A stretch of DNA of 64,000 nucleotides from Roseovarius sp. TE539 (GTDB taxonomy: Bacteria > Pseudomonadota > Alphaproteobacteria > Rhodobacterales > Rhodobacteraceae), in NCBI RefSeq assembly GCF_003298505.1, contig NZ_QNGB01000005.1, positions 1-64,000 of the forward strand. Reading direction: 5' to 3'. Below, in pieces: positions 42,459-56,989 of this stretch (the stretch's first letter is position 1; every line of letters starts with the position of its first letter). The notes beneath the pieces were generated by a model. That model was not told the DNA's origin, did not search any database, and saw only the letters and a program-made list of their open reading frames with translations. A program made the translations under genes and the position numbers.

Positions 42459-42914
42459 TCATCCGCCGGGCAGGGCGGTGCGGCGGATCATGGTGCGCAA
42501 CGCAAAGCTCGAGCGCATCGAGCGGATCCCGGCGATCTGCATGAGCCCGTCCTCGAGGAAACGATCATAGGCCGCCAGGTCCGCCGCCACCACCCGGATC
42601 AGCACGTCGCGGGTGCCGGTCATGAGGTAGCATTCCATAACCTCCTCGAAGCCCCGCAGCGCCGTCTCGAACCGCGCAACCGCGTCGCGCGACTGCCGTT
42701 CGAGTTCAACGAAGATGAACACGTTGAGCGGCAGGCCAAGCTTTTCCTGGTCCACGCGGGCCGAATAACCGGTGATCACACCTGCCGACTCGAGCCGCGC
42801 CACCCGCCGCGCACAGGGTGTGGGCGAAAGCCCCGCGGCCGCGGACAGATCCGCCAGCCTCTGACGCCCGTCGTACTGGAGCGCAGCGATGATGCGGCGG
42901 TCGATCGCGTCCAT
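42459..42914 (-). CDS. Lrp/AsnC-family transcriptional regulator
   Basis: A 151-residue regulator with an N-terminal AsnC helix-turn-helix (MDAIDRRIIAALQYDGRQRL, SPTPCARRVARLESAGVI) and a C-terminal RAM ligand domain (VECYLMTGTRDVLIRVVAAD by pattern). Such proteins sense amino acids. It is divergent from an amino-acid dehydrogenase gene, with 122 bases between starts. It is therefore the likely regulator of that gene, responding to its substrate, as Bkd and Lrp-type regulators do. The start at 42914 follows GGGGATTGGTGAAA. Confidence 0.92.
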   Translation of the reverse strand: MDAIDRRIIAALQYDGRQRLADLSAAAGLSPTPCARRVARLESAGVITGYSARVDQEKLGLPLNVFIFVELERQSRDAVARFETALRGFEEVMECYLMTGTRDVLIRVVAADLAAYDRFLEDGLMQIAGIRSMRSSFALRTMIRRTALPGG

Positions 42915-43036
42915 TTTCACCAATCCCCGCAGCTTCTTTAGCAAATTTTACCACGATTCGCCCCATCCGCATCCCGTTTTGGCGTTTTTTCGCGGCACAC
43001 CCTGCCTAGATTCAGTCCAAAGGGAGGATTTGCACC

Positions 43037-44083
43037 ATGCTGACACGGATTTCCACCACCACCCATGAGGAGGTCTATCGCGTCACCGATGCGCCATCCG
43101 GGCTCGACGGGTTCATCGCCATCCATGCCACCGGGGCCGGACCGGCCGCCGGGGGCCTGCGGATGCGAAGCTACGCCCGGGCCGAGGACGCGCTTGCCGA
43201 TGTGCTGGCCCTGTCACGCGGCATGACCTACAAGAACGCCGCCGCGGGCCTGCCCCTCGGCGGCGGCAAGGCGGTGATCATGGGCGATCCGCGCCGTGAC
43301 AAGGCCGCTGCGATGCTGCGCGCCATGGGGCGCGCGGTTGCCCGGCTCGACGGGCGCTACTGGACCGCCGAGGACATGGGCATGAGCCCGGAAGACATGG
43401 CGGTGATCCGGCAGGAAACAGGGTTCGTCGCCGGGCTGAGCGATGGCCTCCATGCCAGCGGCGATCCCTCGCCGGTGACCGCCGAAGGCGTGTTGCGGGC
43501 CATGCGGCTGGGGGCGCGGCACCGCTTCGGCGATCCGGACCTGACCGGACGGCGCGTCGCCCTGCAGGGGCTGGGCCATGTCGGGCGGCACCTCTGCACA
43601 TTGCTGCATGATGCCGGCGCCGATTTGTGCGTGGCCGATCCGGTGGCGTCCAATGTCCGGTGGGCGGAGGCGGATTGCGGCGCCACCATTGTCGATCCCG
43701 CGGAAATCCACGCCGTCAAGGCCGACGTTTTCGCCCCCTGCGCGATCGGCGGCACGGTCAATCCCGAAACCGTCCCGGCATTGAAGGCAGGGTTGGTTGC
43801 GGGGGCCGCCAACAATCAACTGTCGGGCGATGGTTGCGCCGACGCGCTGCACGGGCGCGGCATTCTCTACCTGCCCGATTACGTGGCCAATGGCGGCGGA
43901 ATCATAAATGCCGCGGCCGAGATCCTGCGCATCGCTGATCGTGGCCCGTGGGTCTCTGCCAGGCTGGATGCCCTGGAGGACACTATGGCGCGGATACTCG
44001 ACCGGGCGGCGGCCGAGGATGTCAGCCCCGCGCATGTGGCCGACCGCATTGTCGAGGACCGGATGCTGGACCGCGCCGGCTGA
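43037..44083 (+). CDS. Leucine/phenylalanine-type amino-acid dehydrogenase
   Basis: A 348-residue Glu/Leu/Phe/Val dehydrogenase that oxidatively deaminates an amino acid with NAD. The dimerisation/catalytic half has AAGGLRMRSYARAEDALADV, MTYKNAAAGLPLGGGKAVIM with the catalytic Lys, and ED in WTAEDMGMSPEDM. The Rossmann half has VALQGLGHVGRHLCTLLHD and APCAIGGTVNPETVP. Length and AAGLPLGGGKAVI favour Leu/Phe dehydrogenase over glutamate dehydrogenase. AGGGAGGATTTGCACC precedes the ATG. The divergent Lrp gene suggests induction by the amino-acid substrate. Confidence 0.9.
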   Translation: MLTRISTTTHEEVYRVTDAPSGLDGFIAIHATGAGPAAGGLRMRSYARAEDALADVLALSRGMTYKNAAAGLPLGGGKAVIMGDPRRDKAAAMLRAMGRAVARLDGRYWTAEDMGMSPEDMAVIRQETGFVAGLSDGLHASGDPSPVTAEGVLRAMRLGARHRFGDPDLTGRRVALQGLGHVGRHLCTLLHDAGADLCVADPVASNVRWAEADCGATIVDPAEIHAVKADVFAPCAIGGTVNPETVPALKAGLVAGAANNQLSGDGCADALHGRGILYLPDYVANGGGIINAAAEILRIADRGPWVSARLDALEDTMARILDRAAAEDVSPAHVADRIVEDRMLDRAG

Positions 44084-45087: not shown

Positions 45088-45444
45088 ATGAAGACTATTC
45101 TGATGGCTGGCGTGATCTTGCTTCTGGCGGGGTGCGGCGGGGTCCACAAGGCCCGGCAGGCGCGCGGCCCGGTGGCCGAGCTGGGGCCGGTGCCGGTCAG
45201 TTTCGGACCGATCAGCAAGGCATGCATGCGATCGGGACGCGAGGCGCGAACGCGGCGGCTTTGCGGATGCGTGCAGGCGGTCGCCGACAAGACCCTGACC
45301 AACCGCCAGCAAAGCCGCGCGGTCAAGTTCTATGCCAACCCGCATCTGGCGCAGGAAATCCGCCAATCGGACCGTCCGTCGGACGAACGGTTCTGGCGGG
45401 TCTACACGGCCTACGGCCAGCAGGCCGAACGCATCTGCGGATGA
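45088..45444 (+). CDS. Small lipoprotein of unknown function
   Basis: A 118-residue lipoprotein. The signal is MKTILMAGVILLLAGCGG with a clean lipobox LAGC, Cys16 being lipidated. The mature domain has VPVSFGPISKACMRSGREAR, RLCGCVQAVADKTLTNRQQS and DPHxxQEIRQSDRPSDERFW-like motifs, and four cysteines likely form disulfides. Relatives in Rhodobacteraceae are sometimes called arginine transporter, which nothing here supports. GGGGCAAGTGAG precedes the ATG. The GCGC repeat of cysteine motifs resembles a small periplasmic scaffold; function unknown. Confidence 0.85.
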   Translation: MKTILMAGVILLLAGCGGVHKARQARGPVAELGPVPVSFGPISKACMRSGREARTRRLCGCVQAVADKTLTNRQQSRAVKFYANPHLAQEIRQSDRPSDERFWRVYTAYGQQAERICG

Positions 45445-45468: not shown

Positions 45469-46155
45469 TCAGGCCCGTGCCGCCGTGACGATTGCCCCGG
45501 TCAGGCAATCCAGACTGTCGGTAATGCCGATGCCGGTTGGCAAGGCTCCTTCAAGCAACGAAATCTCGGTGCAGGCCACAAGCAGATGATCGGCACCGTC
45601 ACGCTGCATCGCGCGTGCCTCATGCTCAAGCGCCGGTCCAAGGTCCGCGCGCCCCTGCCCCGCCTTCACTGCGCGGATGATCGCCAGAAGCCCCGCGCCA
45701 TCATCGCGGGCATGGACCGCCTCCAGCCCGGCTGCGGCGAAAGGGGCATCAAAGACCCCGGCCTTGCGGACCGCGGGGGAGGCCAGCATACCCACCCGCC
45801 GCGCGCCCCGTGCAACAAGTGCCCGGACGCTCAGCGCCACCATGTCCAGAAACGGCAGGGTGGTGGCCCCGCGCACCGCGTCCGCATAGGCATGCGCGGT
45901 GTTGCAGGGCATCGCCAGCGCCACCGCGCCGGCACGTTGCAGATCCTGCGCCATGGCGACCAGCACCGGGGCCGGATCCGCGCCCGTGCCGTCGATCAGC
46001 GCCTCGATGCGGCTCGGTACCTGCGGGTTCTGATGGACGATCAGGGGAACGTGATCGGCATCGTCGCGCGCGTCGGGCACCGCCGCCAGCACCCGCCGCA
46101 TCAGCAGGATCGTGGCGTCGGGCCCCATACCGCCGAGAATGCCGACCGGCTTCAT
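45469..46155 (-). CDS. Aspartate/glutamate racemase family protein (possible cysteate racemase)
   Basis: A 228-residue PLP-independent racemase of the Asp/Glu superfamily. The two catalytic cysteines are in LAMPCNTAHAYAD near residue 85 and LLVACTEISLLEG near 195, and GGMGPDATILLMRR is the N-terminal signature. The gene follows a CuyA-like cysteate lyase by seven bases in one transcription unit with a HpsN-like dehydrogenase. Cysteate is the sulfonate analogue of aspartate, so interconversion of D- and L-cysteate is a reasonable hypothesis; an aspartate racemase is the default. No such cysteate activity is known to me. Confidence 0.85.
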   Translation of the reverse strand: MKPVGILGGMGPDATILLMRRVLAAVPDARDDADHVPLIVHQNPQVPSRIEALIDGTGADPAPVLVAMAQDLQRAGAVALAMPCNTAHAYADAVRGATTLPFLDMVALSVRALVARGARRVGMLASPAVRKAGVFDAPFAAAGLEAVHARDDGAGLLAIIRAVKAGQGRADLGPALEHEARAMQRDGADHLLVACTEISLLEGALPTGIGITDSLDCLTGAIVTAARA

Positions 46156-46162
46156 CGCTCCA

Positions 46163-47167
46163 TCACTCCGGCATGTCGAAACAATGGGTGTACCCGGTCA
46201 GCCCGATCGCCCCGCCGGTATGAAGGAACACCACCCGCTCACCGGCACGGAAACGGCCCTTTCGGATCAGGTCGATCAGGCCCGCTGCGCCCTTTGCCGA
46301 ATAGACCGGGTCCAGAAGGATCGCCTCGGTCCGCGCGAAAAGGTCGATCGCCTCCAGCGTGTCCTCGGCCGGCAGTCCGTAGCCGGGCCCGACGTAATCG
46401 CAATTGGCGACAACGTCGCCACGGGCAACCGCGCCGGGGCATCCCAGCTTGTCGGCGGTCTTTTCCGCCAGCGCAAAGACGTTGGCCTCCTGCTTGTCTT
46501 TCGGCGCGCGCACGCCGATGCCCAGAAGCGGGATCTGCGCGTGCATAGCGCCGAAGCCGGTGATCAGGCCCGCCTGCGTGCCCGCCGACCCGGTGGCGTG
46601 GACGACGTGATCAACCACCAGCCCCTCGGTGGCGAACTGGCTCATCAGTTCCAGCGCGCAGTTGACGTAGCCAAGCGCGCCGGTCGGGTTGGAGCCGCCG
46701 CCGGGAATCGTATAGGCGTTGCGCCCGTCGGCGCGGAAGGTTTCGGCCACCGCCTCCATCTCCGCGTTCATGTCCAGCCCGGCATCGCGATGCTCCATCG
46801 TGGCCCCGTGCAGATGATCCAGCAGGACATTCCCGTTGTGCCGGTAATTGTCGTGCTCGTAACCGGTGCGATCCTCCAGCAGGATATGGCAATCCATGCC
46901 CATCCGCGCAGCCGCCGCAGCCGTCTGGCGGGCGTGGTTGGATTGGGTGGCCCCCTGGGTGAGCACGATGTCGGCGCCCTGCGCCTCGGCCTCCGCCATC
47001 AGGAATTCCAGCTTGCGGGTCTTGTTGCCGCCGGTGCTGAGTCCGGTGCAGTCATCCCTCTTGATCCAGATCTCCGGACCGCCAAGCAGGGCCGAAAGCC
47101 GCGGCAGCGGCTCCAGCGGGGTGGGCAGATGCGCAAGGCGGACACGGGGGAAGCGGGCAAGATTCAT
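46163..47167 (-). CDS. cuyA: L-cysteate sulfo-lyase (CuyA)/D-cysteine desulfhydrase family
   Basis: A 334-residue PLP enzyme of the ACC deaminase/D-cysteine desulfhydrase fold. The PLP lysine is in [19 protein letters not shown] near residue 51. [18 protein letters not shown] and [19 protein letters not shown] are the carboxylate- and phosphate-binding loops. CuyA in Ruegeria pomeroyi splits L-cysteate to pyruvate, ammonia and sulfite. Placement between a HpsN-like dehydrogenase and a racemase favours this over D-cysteine desulfhydrase. The start at 47167 gives [19 protein letters not shown]; the gap to the upstream gene is four bases. Confidence 0.82.
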
Positions 47168-47171
47168 TCTT

Positions 47172-48479
47172 TCATCCTTTTGAATTCGCGGCAATGTCGG
47201 CCATGGGCGTGGCACTGTCCAGCCGAATGTCGGCACTGCGGGCATGGCCCTCCATCCCTTCCTCACGGCTGATGCGGGCGCTGACACGGGCAAGATCGGG
47301 CAGGCCCTGCGGCGTGACCTGCTGCCAGGTGACGGTCTTGAGGAACTTGTGAACGCTCAGCCCCCCGGTATAGCGCGCCGCGCCGGACGTGGGCAGCACA
47401 TGGTTGGGGCCAGCGGCCTTGTCGCCGAAGGCCACCGTGGTTCCGGATCCCAGAAACAGTGAGCCATAGGCGCTCAGGCGGTCACGCCACCACGGCAGGT
47501 CGGTGGCCTGCACATGCAGGTGTTCGGGCGCACGGGCATCCGCGTGGCGGGCCATCTCCTCGCGCGTGTCGCACAGCGCCACCTCGCCCAGTTCACGCCA
47601 TGCGGTCGCGGCCGCGTCGCGGTTCGGGGCCGGCAGCTCGGCGATCAGCGCCGGAATGCGCGCCAGCACCGCCTCGGCCAGCGGGCGGGACGTCGACGCC
47701 AGCCAGACCGGCGAGGTCGCGCCATGTTCGGCCTGCCCGACAAGGTCCGTCGCCACTGTATCGGGGTTTGCCGTGTCATCGGCCAGAACAAGACTGTCGG
47801 TGGGTCCGGCGAACATGTCGATCCCGATGGGGCCGAAAAGCTGCCGCTTGGCTTCCGCGACGAAGGCGTTGCCGGGCCCCACGAGAATATCCGCCGGCGG
47901 CGCCCCGAAGAGGCCGAATGCCATCGCCGCAACCCCCTGAACACCGCCCATGCAGAGGATCCGCGTGGCCCCGGCCAGGTGCATGGCGTAGAGCATCGGG
48001 GCGGGAATGCCAGCATCCCCTCGCGGTGGCGAACAGGCGGTGATGTCGGCCACCCCGGCCTCGCGCGCGGTGGCGATGGACATCAGCGCCGAAGCGATAT
48101 GCGCGTAACGCCCGCCCGGTACGTAACAGCCCGCCGCCGAAAGCGGGATCTGGCGCTGCCCGGCAATGAGCCCGGGGCGCAGCTCCACCTCCATGTCCCG
48201 CGCAGTGGCGCGCTGCGCGGCGGCGAACCGGCTGATGTTGTCATGCGCCCAGCGGATATCGTCGCGCAGATCGACGGGCACCTGTGCCTCGGCCCGCGCG
48301 ATGCGCTCGGGGTTTACTGTGATCTCGCCGGTCCAGCCATCCAGATCGCGGGCATATTCCAGCGCCACCTGCGCACCGCCCGCACGCAGCCGACCCAGCA
48401 TGACCTGAACGGTATCGGCAACATCGGCTTCTGCCTGTGGCGCTTGGCCCGGGGCCTGCTTGAGATAGGTGAGCGGCAT
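47172..48479 (-). CDS. hpsN: HisD-family dehydrogenase, sulfopropanediol 3-dehydrogenase (HpsN)-like
   Basis: A 435-residue NAD-dependent dehydrogenase of the histidinol dehydrogenase fold. The zinc ligands are in [14 protein letters not shown], the catalytic Glu-His pair in [13 protein letters not shown], and the C-terminal HNVLP-type motif reads [18 protein letters not shown]. It also has [16 protein letters not shown]. The partner genes concern C3 sulfonates, so oxidation of 2,3-dihydroxypropane-1-sulfonate to sulfolactate, as by HpsN in roseobacters, is likelier than histidine synthesis. No other his gene is nearby. The start at 48479 gives MPLTYLKQ. First gene of the operon. Confidence 0.75.
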
Positions 48480-48577
48480 GGCTTTCGTCCTCCCTGCCAC
48501 CCGACTTGCGCCCACCGCGCTTCGCGGGCAAGCGTTTTGCCCGGTTCGAGGCGGGGTTTTTCCCTGCGCTTAAACAG

Positions 48578-48695: not shown

Positions 48696-49394
48696 ATGGA
48701 CAGGATCGTGATACTCACCGGCGCCGGGATTTCCGCGGAAAGCGGCCTCGGCACATTCCGCGACGAGGGCGGACTCTGGGCCCGCCACCGGATCGAGGAC
48801 GTGGCCACGCCGGAGGGATTCGCGCGCGACGCGGAACTCGTGCATGACTTCTACAATGCCCGCCGCAAACAGGCCGCACGGGCCCGACCGAATGCCGCCC
48901 ACCGGGCACTGGCACATCTTCAGGCCGAACATGCCGGCGAGGTGGTGATCGTGACGCAGAATGTCGATGCCCTGCACGAGGCGGCAGGCAGCATCGGGGT
49001 TCTTCACATGCACGGGACCCTGGCGCGTGCCCTGTGCGCGCATTGCGGGCACCGATGGTCGGCGCCGGATGAAATGGCGGCCGACACGCCCTGCCCGTCC
49101 TGCGGGCATGGCGCGGCAAGGCCCGACGTTGTCTGGTTCGGGGAAATGCCCCATCACCTTGATGAGATATGGGAGCTTCTGCAGGGGGCAACCCTCTTTG
49201 CGGCCATCGGCACGTCAGGTCAGGTGCATCCGGCCGCGGGCTTCGCCCTGCAGGCCCGCGAGGCCGGGGCGCACACCGTCGAGCTCACTCTCGAACGCTC
49301 ACAGGTTTCGGACGATTTCGACGAAACACGAAATGGACCCGCGACACGTGTCGTGCCGGACTGGGTATCAGGCATCCTGAGAGGCCGGGGCTGA
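48696..49394 (+). CDS. cobB: NAD-dependent protein deacylase (sirtuin, class III-like)
   Basis: A 232-residue sirtuin. The NAD site is ILTGAGISAESGLGTFRDEGG, the catalytic His is in QNVDALHEAAGS/GVLHMHGTLAR, and the zinc is held by CAHC and CPSC. FYNARR supplies the Tyr and Arg spaced as in SIRT5/CobB enzymes, which accept succinyl and malonyl groups as well as acetyl. Such enzymes reactivate acyl-CoA synthetases by deacylating their A10 lysine; prpE and the acyl-CoA ligase in this window are natural targets. The ATG at 48696 begins the fold behind GGCGAGGGGGC. Confidence 0.92.
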   Translation: MDRIVILTGAGISAESGLGTFRDEGGLWARHRIEDVATPEGFARDAELVHDFYNARRKQAARARPNAAHRALAHLQAEHAGEVVIVTQNVDALHEAAGSIGVLHMHGTLARALCAHCGHRWSAPDEMAADTPCPSCGHGAARPDVVWFGEMPHHLDEIWELLQGATLFAAIGTSGQVHPAAGFALQAREAGAHTVELTLERSQVSDDFDETRNGPATRVVPDWVSGILRGRG

Positions 49395-55909: not shown

Positions 55910-56989
55910 ATGGGACAGAACGGCATCCGCAGCACATCAGGACGCGGGCGGCGCTTCGACAGCGTGCTCGATACGATCGGCGACACGCCGGTCATCCGCA
56001 TCAACAACCTCGGCCCCGATCACGTGACGATCCATGTCAAGGCCGAGGCCTTCAACCCCGCCGCGTCGGTCAAGGACCGGCTGGCGGTGAACATCATCGA
56101 GGCGGCCGAACGCGACGGCAGCCTGAAGCCCGGGCAAACGGTGGTCGAGGCCACCAGCGGCAATACCGGGATCGGCCTGGCGATGGTCTGCGCGCAGAAG
56201 GGCTATCCGCTGGTGGTGACCATGGCCGACAGCTTCTCGATCGAGCGCCGCCGCCTGATGCGCATGCTGGGCGCCAAGGTGGTCCTGACGCCGCGCGCGG
56301 AGAAGGGATTCGGCATGTACCGCAAGGCGGTGGAACTGGCCGAGGCCAATGGCTGGTTCCTCGCGCACCAGTTCGAAACCGATGCCAACGCCGCGATCCA
56401 CGAATCAACCACCGCCCGCGAGATCCTGGGCGATTTCGAGGGTGACCGGCTGGATTATTTCGTCACCGGCTACGGCACCGGCGGGACCGTCAGCGGCGTG
56501 GCCCGTGTCCTGCGCCGGGAACGGCCGGAAACGAAGATCATCCTGTCCGAGCCGGACAACGCGCAGCTTGTCGGATCGGGTCACGCCCAGGACCGCAACG
56601 CCGCGGGCGAACCCGCGGCCAGCCACCCGGCCTTCGAGCCGCACCCGATCCAGGGATGGACCCCGGATTTCATCCCCCTTGTCCTGCAGGAGGCGATCGA
56701 CGCGGGTCATTTCGACGAGCTGATTCCGGTTGCCGGTGCCGCCGGCATCGCATGGGCGCAGAAACTGGCGGCAAAGGAAGGGATCCTGACCGGCGTTTCC
56801 GGGGGATCCACCTTTGCGATCGCCATGCAGATCGCCGAGAGGGCCGAGCCGGGGTCGGTGATCCTGGCCATGCTGCCCGATACCGGCGAACGCTACCTGA
56901 CCACGCCGCTTTTCGAAACCTTTCCCGAGGACATGACCGAAGAAGAGGCCGAGATCTCCCGCTCCACGCCGGGATACCGGATGCCCTGA
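55910..56989 (+). CDS. cysK: Cysteine synthase A
   Basis: A 359-residue PLP enzyme making cysteine from O-acetylserine and sulfide. The PLP lysine is Lys55 in FNPAASVKDR, and VVEATSGNTGIGLAMV binds the substrate carboxylate. GYGTGGTVSGVARVLR anchors the PLP phosphate, with GVSGGSTFAIAM at the C-terminal loop. It is about 40 residues longer than E. coli CysK, through an insert at residues about 222-240 (AQDRNAAGEPAASHPAFEPH) and a C-terminal tail. AGGAACGGGAAG precedes the ATG. The sulfite released by the CuyA route could feed it after reduction. Confidence 0.92.
   Translation: MGQNGIRSTSGRGRRFDSVLDTIGDTPVIRINNLGPDHVTIHVKAEAFNPAASVKDRLAVNIIEAAERDGSLKPGQTVVEATSGNTGIGLAMVCAQKGYPLVVTMADSFSIERRRLMRMLGAKVVLTPRAEKGFGMYRKAVELAEANGWFLAHQFETDANAAIHESTTAREILGDFEGDRLDYFVTGYGTGGTVSGVARVLRRERPETKIILSEPDNAQLVGSGHAQDRNAAGEPAASHPAFEPHPIQGWTPDFIPLVLQEAIDAGHFDELIPVAGAAGIAWAQKLAAKEGILTGVSGGSTFAIAMQIAERAEPGSVILAMLPDTGERYLTTPLFETFPEDMTEEEAEISRSTPGYRMP

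Follow-up and report, generated by a model that had tools for sequence, protein, structure and literature searches.

An HpsN-family dehydrogenase encoded ahead of cuyA and cuyB in Roseovarius sp. TE539, a candidate cysteinolate dehydrogenase

The described systems closest to the locus analysed here are the (R)-DHPS dehydrogenase HpsN, the histidinol dehydrogenase HisD, and the CuyB/CuyA pair of cysteate dissimilation. HpsN converts DHPS to sulfolactate, prefers R-DHPS over the S form 10^6-fold, and is represented by solved structures from R. pomeroyi (SPO0594, PDB 8WWE) and C. pinatubonensis (8V35, here CpHpsN); the published survey of HpsN kept only genes adjoining hpsO and hpsP. HisD, which shares the Pfam family PF00815 with HpsN, takes an amino alcohol to an amino acid, histidinol to histidine, via the same two-phase chemistry. 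CuyB interconverts L- and D-cysteate, and D-cysteate is the preferred substrate of CuyA, according to PMC11382572, which cites two references for this, one of them J Biol Chem 2024;300:107371. A further C3 sulfonate, cysteinolic acid, occurs widely among marine algae, whose cells contain it at levels similar in range to those of DHPS (PMC8703288); there is also a report of it from R. pomeroyi (PMC8319176). Within the parts of the literature covered by our search, no bacterial enzyme degrading cysteinolic acid is named; Org Biomol Chem 2022;20:3043 and J Biol Chem 2024;300:107371, which lie outside that scope, may name one.

The window, that is, the whole stretch of 64,000 nucleotides of the TE539 genome that was analysed, carries on its minus strand the genes hpsN2, cuyA, and cuyB, in that order and with intergenic gaps of 4 and 7 bases (Table 1), in agreement with the layout given by a first-pass annotation made from the letters alone. 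Each of the three starts has a Shine-Dalgarno-like sequence ahead of it, as judged by eye. The genes of the window were called by a crude codon-bias method, and no transporter or regulator among them directly adjoins the trio. A cysK-like gene does lie nearby, as the same annotation had mentioned, with a score slightly under the family cut-off. Its remark that a CuyZ-type exporter is absent holds for the called genes of the window, whose names were assigned by eye; R. pomeroyi CuyZ, used as a query, gave no match at E<=1e-20 in the whole TE539 genome.

Table 1. Positions of the gene trio and neighbouring features in the window.
Feature	Coordinates	Strand	Description
hpsN2	47172..48479	-	Candidate cysteinolate dehydrogenase, 435 aa; NAD-dependent C3-sulfonate dehydrogenase of the HpsN (histidinol-dehydrogenase-like) family
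cuyA	46163..47167	-	Probable D-cysteate sulfo-lyase (PLP enzyme), 334 aa; NCBIfam NF052482, PDB 7ysk, GGNK
cuyB	45469..46155	-	Probable cysteate racemase, Asp/Glu racemase superfamily, 228 aa; NCBIfam NF052483, Pfam PF01177
Shine-Dalgarno-like GGGAGGA	48488..48494	-	8 bases ahead of the hpsN2 start; sequence read directly
Divergent sir2-family gene	48696..49394	+	Pfam SIR2; synteny; landmark adjoining hpsN2 in many relatives, outside the pathway
cysK-like gene	55910-56989		339.8 bits, under the cut-off of 350.95

Judging by their family matches, the two downstream genes very probably encode a cysteate racemase and a D-cysteate sulfo-lyase. CuyB reaches 258.4 bits against the NCBIfam family "cysteate racemase" (cut-off 190) and CuyA 550.9 bits against "D-cysteate sulfo-lyase" (cut-off 450); CuyA also matches PDB 7ysk with 452 bits and has its GGNK motif at residues 46-49 (the query in these searches, 46163-47170, was one codon longer, which leaves the matches unaffected). 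CuyB matches Pfam PF01177 as well, and the two catalytic cysteines noticed in the first pass are C84 and C195, both kept in 94 of 94 extracted homologues. The suggestion that the racemase acts on cysteate and makes the D form available to CuyA thus finds support in the family score and, for its direction, in PMC11382572. The name L-cysteate sulfo-lyase given to CuyA is out of date, the family now being that of a D-cysteate sulfo-lyase (PMC11382572), and the statement that no cysteate racemase is known fails, as does the idea that this one would be the first, because CuyB is already a named family and is described in PMC11382572. The pair in TE539 resembles the known dissimilation system in that both enzymes are encoded side by side and exceed curated cut-offs; it differs in lacking an adjoining transporter or regulator, in belonging to a genome where the CuyZ search gave no match, and in sitting behind an HpsN-family dehydrogenase. 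It is this dehydrogenase adjoining cuyA and cuyB that stands out.

HpsN2 matches PF00815 with 405.7 bits, and its best match in the PDB is the (R)-DHPS dehydrogenase 8wwe from R. pomeroyi (529 bits, 60% identity), its identity to CpHpsN being 55%. It carries the GRY[AS]H motif as GRYAH, and its H127 and K354 correspond to the sulfonate-binding H126 and K353 of CpHpsN, so that the description of the gene product as HpsN-like is borne out by family, motif, and active-site residues. In CpHpsN numbering, 78 of 78 HpsN2 rows keep H126 and K353 (sulfonate), Q248, H251, D352, and H411 (zinc), and E318 and H319 (catalysis), the comparison leaving out rows L079 and L082, which lie outside the HpsN2 clade, and one row shorter than 400 aa. 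The compared residues are kept in HpsN2 with the exception of Ser226, which is Thr in both HpsN2 and the R. pomeroyi type of HpsN (HpsN1), and Arg153 at a domain tip, which is Gly. In contrast, Tyr replaces both His126 and Lys353 in the HisD rows (11/11), and the identity of HpsN2 to the HisD rows compared is 34-40%. A separate hisD lies on contig C5 of the TE539 genome; this gene and the motif lead us to reject an assignment of the dehydrogenase as hisD.

In a quick tree calculated without bootstrap from 72 rows picked by hand from 125 loci with homologues, HpsN2 does not group with R. pomeroyi HpsN but belongs to a clade of 39 rows (SH-aLRT 92), separate from the one formed by 15 HpsN1 rows (96). 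Rows L079, L082, and L095, first labelled HpsN2, were placed outside the HpsN2 clade, and the verified HpsN of Cupriavidus lies on a long branch outside both. The alignment has 24 columns that separate HpsN1 from HpsN2, among which, of the residues named in PMC11382572, only the adenine-stacking position 45 is found; the Cupriavidus DHPS enzyme is without the HpsN1 letter at 19 of the 24. We therefore rejected these residues as a means of reading the substrate.

The neighbours of hpsN2 were surveyed by tblastn in the best 80 of 465 relatives, of which 3 loci were incomplete and 77 usable, several of the 80 having flanks shorter than 10 kb. The trio, which the first-pass annotation had proposed to seek in other genomes, recurs in the order hpsN-cuyA-cuyB in 15 of these 77 loci; in another 29, cuyB follows hpsN2 directly, which gives 44/77 with cuyB behind hpsN2 either directly or via cuyA. 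Both genes are merely nearby in 5/77, and neither is present in 28/77. Where hpsN2-cuyB stands without an adjoining cuyA, CuyA is encoded elsewhere in the four genomes tested, and it is missing in two (G397, G403) of three tested genomes in which HpsN2 stands alone. Of 84 genomes of the genus to which the window belongs, 54 encode the enzyme, at identities of at least 73%. The island that contains hpsN2 in Defluviimonas also carries xsc together with genes for a TauE-type exporter and a molybdopterin enzyme. Some "LysR" tags in further loci called by codon bias look like antisense artefacts.

The DHPS role that the first-pass annotation implied for the dehydrogenase receives no support from these neighbours. 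HpsO, HpsP, HpsK, HpsM, SlcD, ComE, and SuyB gave no match beside hpsN2 in any of the 80 loci (best 80 of 465) at the thresholds used, nor are TRAP genes found adjoining it, whereas HpsO and HpsP follow HpsN1-type genes in 8/8 loci examined. The only members of this protein family in the TE539 genome are hisD and HpsN2; HpsP and the DHPS TRAP binding protein HpsK were not found in it, nor was a close SlcD, the nearest relative being 42% identical. SuyB had no match in 9/9 genomes, among which there was no positive control, so that this result carries no weight, and the ComC cut-off (NF040650) was passed in 0/10 genomes, including an R. pomeroyi strain although DSS-3 has an annotated comC, which makes this test too strict. 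HpsN2 is retained besides hpsN1-hpsO-hpsP in eight genomes, and an R. pomeroyi strain has both an HpsN1 (98.5% to 8WWE) and an HpsN2 (73% to that of the window).

Fifteen plasmid regions were also inspected, picked by eye and several of them for the closeness of CuyA and the HpsN relative to each other. In seven, an HpsN relative shares an operon with cuyA and cuyB, and none of HpsO, HpsP, SlcD, or ComE has a match there. The cut-off for the taurine (aminosulfonate) binding protein of a taurine-type importer is exceeded in four of the seven, a YeiH-type exporter-like gene lies near three, and six (all but L147) have an aminotransferase gene whose product could make cysteate from sulfopyruvate. 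In P. seriniphilus, the cuy-type and the DHPS-type operons are on two different plasmids.

What was observed directly is how the genes are ordered, which families they belong to, that the active site is conserved, that HpsN2 splits from the R. pomeroyi type of HpsN, and which neighbours recur; the substrates are inferred from this, with cysteinolate for HpsN2 as the least certain step. With a probability of about 0.47, the trio would be an operon that degrades a C3 aminosulfonate via cysteate. HpsN2 would oxidize cysteinolate (2-amino-3-hydroxypropanesulfonate) to cysteate in a four-electron reaction that depends on NAD and zinc, the amino counterpart of the HpsN and HisD reactions; CuyB would equilibrate L- and D-cysteate, and CuyA would split D-cysteate into pyruvate, ammonium, and sulfite. 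An amino compound can fit HpsN, since CpHpsN binds L-cysteate essentially like R-sulfolactate (PMC11382572) and R. pomeroyi HpsN has a weak activity with L-histidinol, 691-fold below that with DHPS (PMC11131964). The wider proposal, that HpsN2 is a widespread HpsN paralogue acting as cysteinolate dehydrogenase and, with CuyB and CuyA, completes a bacterial route from cysteinolic acid to pyruvate, ammonium, and sulfite, is tentative, and we would not bet on it at even odds. If true, HpsN2 would be the missing first enzyme for the use of a common algal compound, overlooked because its relatives are annotated hisD and the published survey was limited to neighbours of hpsO and hpsP.

Several observations count against cysteinolate as the substrate. 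CpHpsN showed no L-histidinol activity, HpsN2 stands alone in the 28 loci mentioned above, with CuyA missing in two of the three genomes of this kind that were tested for it, and the plasmid HpsN relatives do not form one clade with chromosomal HpsN2, two of them being placed as sister to HpsN1. Stereochemistry also speaks against the simplest version: by our own reasoning, the R-DHPS preference of HpsN matches L-cysteinolate, and the title of an older paper calls the algal compound D-cysteinolic acid. If the product of HpsN2 were L-cysteate, the natural enantiomer of cysteinolate may not be its substrate; if it were D-cysteate, CuyB would not be needed.

The strongest alternative, which we regard as a serious possibility though doubtful, takes HpsN2 to be a second (R)-DHPS 3-dehydrogenase yielding (R)-sulfolactate, which unlinked enzymes would convert to sulfopyruvate and L-cysteate before CuyB and CuyA finish the route. 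Because the active site is the same in HpsN2 and HpsN1, HpsN2 may turn over R-DHPS too, and its 60% identity is to a verified DHPS enzyme; since the verified Cupriavidus enzyme is placed in neither clade, the ancestor of HpsN2 may already have acted on DHPS. This route, too, requires CuyB, DHPS routes via CuyA exist in print, and the aminotransferase genes of the plasmid operons would fit passage through sulfolactate. Against it stand the failure to find adjoining DHPS genes in 80/80 loci (best 80 of 465), a TE539 genome in which a second HpsN, HpsP, and HpsK were not found and SlcD has only a distant relative, the eight genomes that keep HpsN2 in addition to a full hpsN1-hpsO-hpsP set, and the importers linked on four plasmids, which are of the taurine type and not TRAP transporters.

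It is unlikely that HpsN2 is instead a broad C3-sulfonate alcohol/aldehyde dehydrogenase (for DHPS, sulfolactaldehyde, and cysteinolate), recruited because all of these end in cysteate or pyruvate. CpHpsN is about 12-fold better on sulfolactaldehyde than on R-DHPS, and the varied surroundings of hpsN2, from none of these genes through cuyB or cuyAB to the Defluviimonas island, would suit such an enzyme; however, the repeated pairing with cysteate genes, with DHPS genes not found in the best 80 of 465 loci, points to a specific role. Finally, that the racemase is an ordinary aspartate/glutamate racemase grouped with CuyA incidentally is highly improbable: it does pass the general amino acid racemase model TIGR00035 (112 bits, cut-off 93.1) and its best PDB match is the aspartate racemase 1jfl (127 bits), but it scores 46.5 bits against a cut-off of 417 in the aspartate/glutamate racemase equivalog while exceeding that of the CuyB equivalog, and its linkage to CuyA or HpsN2 recurs across loci and in the seven plasmid operons.

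We propose that HpsN2, our name for the HpsN-like dehydrogenase of the window and its clade, most likely makes cysteate directly from cysteinolate (2-amino-3-hydroxypropanesulfonate) by HisD/HpsN chemistry. Cysteinolate, the amino counterpart of DHPS, would be the substrate that gives cysteate in this way, and the racemase, the D-cysteate lyase and the C3-sulfonate alcohol dehydrogenase would form a self-sufficient operon if the dehydrogenase yields cysteate. The three genes are separated by gaps of 4 and 7 bases, all three starts are preceded by Shine-Dalgarno-like sequences, and G+C by codon position follows the pattern of real genes. A divergent sir2 gene flanks the trio on one side and a small open reading frame on the other, and neither a transporter nor a regulator was seen directly adjoining it in the window. 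The regulator and dehydrogenase genes just past it are possibly for amino acid catabolism; this dehydrogenase scores under the cut-off of its best equivalog. The window is part of contig C45; the genome measures 3.7 Mb and is 99.9% complete.

Coordinates of the trio, of its neighbors in the window, and of an aminotransferase gene from a plasmid region
Feature	Position	Strand	Remark
hpsN2	window 48479-47172	minus	first gene of the packed trio
cuyA	window 47167-46163	minus	middle gene of the trio
cuyB	window 46155-45469	minus	last gene of the trio
Small open reading frame	window 45088-45444		putative lipoprotein, read by eye; family search without a match
Lrp/AsnC-type regulator and Glu/Leu/Phe/Val-type dehydrogenase	window 42459-44083		regulator divergent; both just past the trio
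DegT/DnrJ/EryC1-type aminotransferase	L145 5296-6504		relatives in L146, L148, L149, L152 and L153

The lyase scores 550.9 bits against the NCBIfam model for CuyA, "D-cysteate sulfo-lyase" (cut-off 450), and the racemase 258.4 bits against that for CuyB, "cysteate racemase" (cut-off 190). According to PMC11382572, which cites J Biol Chem 2024;300:107371 as its reference 20, CuyB interconverts L- and D-cysteate and CuyA prefers D-cysteate; an earlier paper, known from its title in a reference list, names a "(S)-cysteate sulfolyase" in Roseovarius nubinhibens. The first-pass annotation had suggested cysteate racemization as a possibly new function, and this main novelty falls because CuyB is already a named NCBIfam family described in PMC11382572. 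The same source gives the CuyB of R. pomeroyi as unknown, so that the position of CuyB next to HpsN2 in Roseovarius, including R. nubinhibens, is a useful addition. Across the order, 81 of 390 genomes encode a CuyB above its cut-off. In three loci (L014, L023 and L024), a LysR gene with 40-42% identity to R. pomeroyi CuyR (named in PMC4334477) adjoins cuyA-cuyB, and in the latter two it sits between hpsN2 and cuyA.

The window dehydrogenase shares 60% identity with R. pomeroyi HpsN (SPO0594; 8WWE, identified as such in PMC11131964) and 55% with C. pinatubonensis HpsN (CpHpsN); its best named matches, at up to 84%, are from Roseovarius. Judged from its sequence, it is a C3-sulfonate dehydrogenase, since the HpsN motif GRYAH is present and the residues that PMC11382572 names for zinc, sulfonate and catalysis are kept (78 of 78 related rows). 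The position of CpHpsN Ser226 is Thr in HpsN2 and likewise in HpsN1, the clade with R. pomeroyi HpsN. It counts against the proposal that the active-site residues do not separate cysteinolate from R-DHPS, which may be turned over as well. In favor of cysteinolate, CpHpsN binds L-cysteate essentially like R-sulfolactate (PMC11382572); against it, the same source reports that CpHpsN does not act on L-histidinol, although weak activity on that compound is described for R. pomeroyi HpsN (PMC11131964).

In a tree of 72 rows, built by a quick method with SH-aLRT as its only support, the window enzyme falls in a 39-row clade (92), apart from the 15-row clade of the R. pomeroyi enzyme (96). Because the verified Cupriavidus HpsN, on a long branch, belongs to neither clade, the tree gives no order of substrate age. 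R. pomeroyi strain SZCCDBG043 carries both types, one 98.5% identical to 8WWE and one 73% to the window enzyme. By a hand tally of the match listing for 84 genomes of the window's genus, 54 have HpsN2 at 73% identity or more (one partial). A second relative, with 58-65% identity, occurs in 48, and both are present in 35. The HisD family is represented in the window's genome by hisD and HpsN2 only. A third, distant group of this family (L137, L139 and L140; about 45% identity to the window enzyme) differs in the letters of the GRYAH motif, and its short loci gave no HpsO/HpsP or cuy matches.

Neighbors were surveyed for the best 80 among 465 relatives; three of these loci are truncated, leaving 77 scored. 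Among these, hpsN2-cuyB occurs in 29, cuyA and cuyB lie within the flank though not directly downstream of hpsN2 in five, and both are missing from the flank in 28. The full trio, whose search in other genomes the first-pass annotation had suggested, recurs in 15. At the thresholds used, HpsO, HpsP, HpsK, HpsM, SlcD, ComE and SuyB were found in none of the 80 HpsN2 loci within the flanking DNA covered; in contrast, HpsO and HpsP lie downstream of the HpsN1-type genes of the same genomes in all eight loci examined.

Whole-genome searches for HpsP, HpsK and SlcD covered nine or ten genomes. Neither HpsP nor HpsK was found in the window's genome and five others without HpsN1; HpsP is present at 65-67% identity in three genomes with HpsN1, and HpsK at 59-83% in four of four. 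SlcD reaches 69-74% in two HpsN1 genomes and at most 42% in the window's genome, the five others without HpsN1 and one HpsN1 genome. SuyB matched in none of nine genomes, a set lacking a positive control, and ComC (NF040650) stayed under its cut-off in all 10, a R. pomeroyi strain among them despite the comC annotated in DSS-3, which makes that cut-off too strict. A search of the window's genome for CuyZ gave no match. CuyA is above its cut-off in 10 of 12 genomes tested, including all nine with hpsN2 adjoining cuyB; five of the nine have it as the cuyA of the trio itself, and the telling figure is thus four of four with hpsN2-cuyB only. Against cysteinolate stand the 28 loci with HpsN2 alone; two of three such genomes tested (G397 and G403, with loci L049 and L081) are without CuyA above cut-off, so that HpsN2 may have a second role there. 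R. pomeroyi has HpsN2 alone at the locus, yet CuyA is present in its genome.

Fifteen plasmid regions were picked by eye, not sampled, among the 30 matches listed for each of CuyA (35 records) and HpsN (87 records). Seven carry cuyA, cuyB and an HpsN relative, seven carry hpsN, hpsO and hpsP, the fifteenth is the cuyA region of R. pomeroyi, and none of the 15 has a mixed operon; Paracoccus seriniphilus carries both operon types, each on its own plasmid. A binding protein above the taurine-binding cut-off is encoded in four of the seven cuy operons and a weaker relative in two, with none seen in L146; three have a YeiH-type exporter-like gene. The four taurine-type importers point to aminosulfonate import; cysteate taken up from outside would make the dehydrogenase needless. 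Cysteinolic acid, a solute widespread among algae (PMC8703288), has been reported in R. pomeroyi (PMC8319176); a review gives it as a roseobacter aminolipid head group, whereas the primary paper gives aminopropane sulfonic acid. Two further points count against cysteinolate. The plasmid enzymes are scattered over the tree, two being sister to HpsN1, and the cuy linkage is therefore ancestral or of more than one origin. Six of the seven operons also have a DegT-type aminotransferase gene between cuyA and cuyB; the two such proteins scanned matched no NCBIfam equivalog above cut-off.

There is a real chance that HpsN2 represents a new enzyme function. A literature search of partial coverage, with two likely sources outside it, returned no report of an enzyme acting on cysteinolate. 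The survey of 272 HpsN genes in PMC11382572 selected for nearby hpsO and hpsP, so that any HpsN2 lacking these neighbors is missing from it by design.

In Defluviimonas (L053, L057 and L060), the genes upstream of hpsN2-cuyB include xsc, a TauE-type exporter gene, and acetate kinase or phosphotransacetylase. Scans of the island covered L053, L057 and a related locus, L072, in which cuyB was not found. It also has an oligopeptide-type ABC importer and, upstream of hpsN2-cuyB, a molybdopterin/iron-sulfur/DmsC-like set that matched no family model and is taken to be a putative sulfite dehydrogenase.
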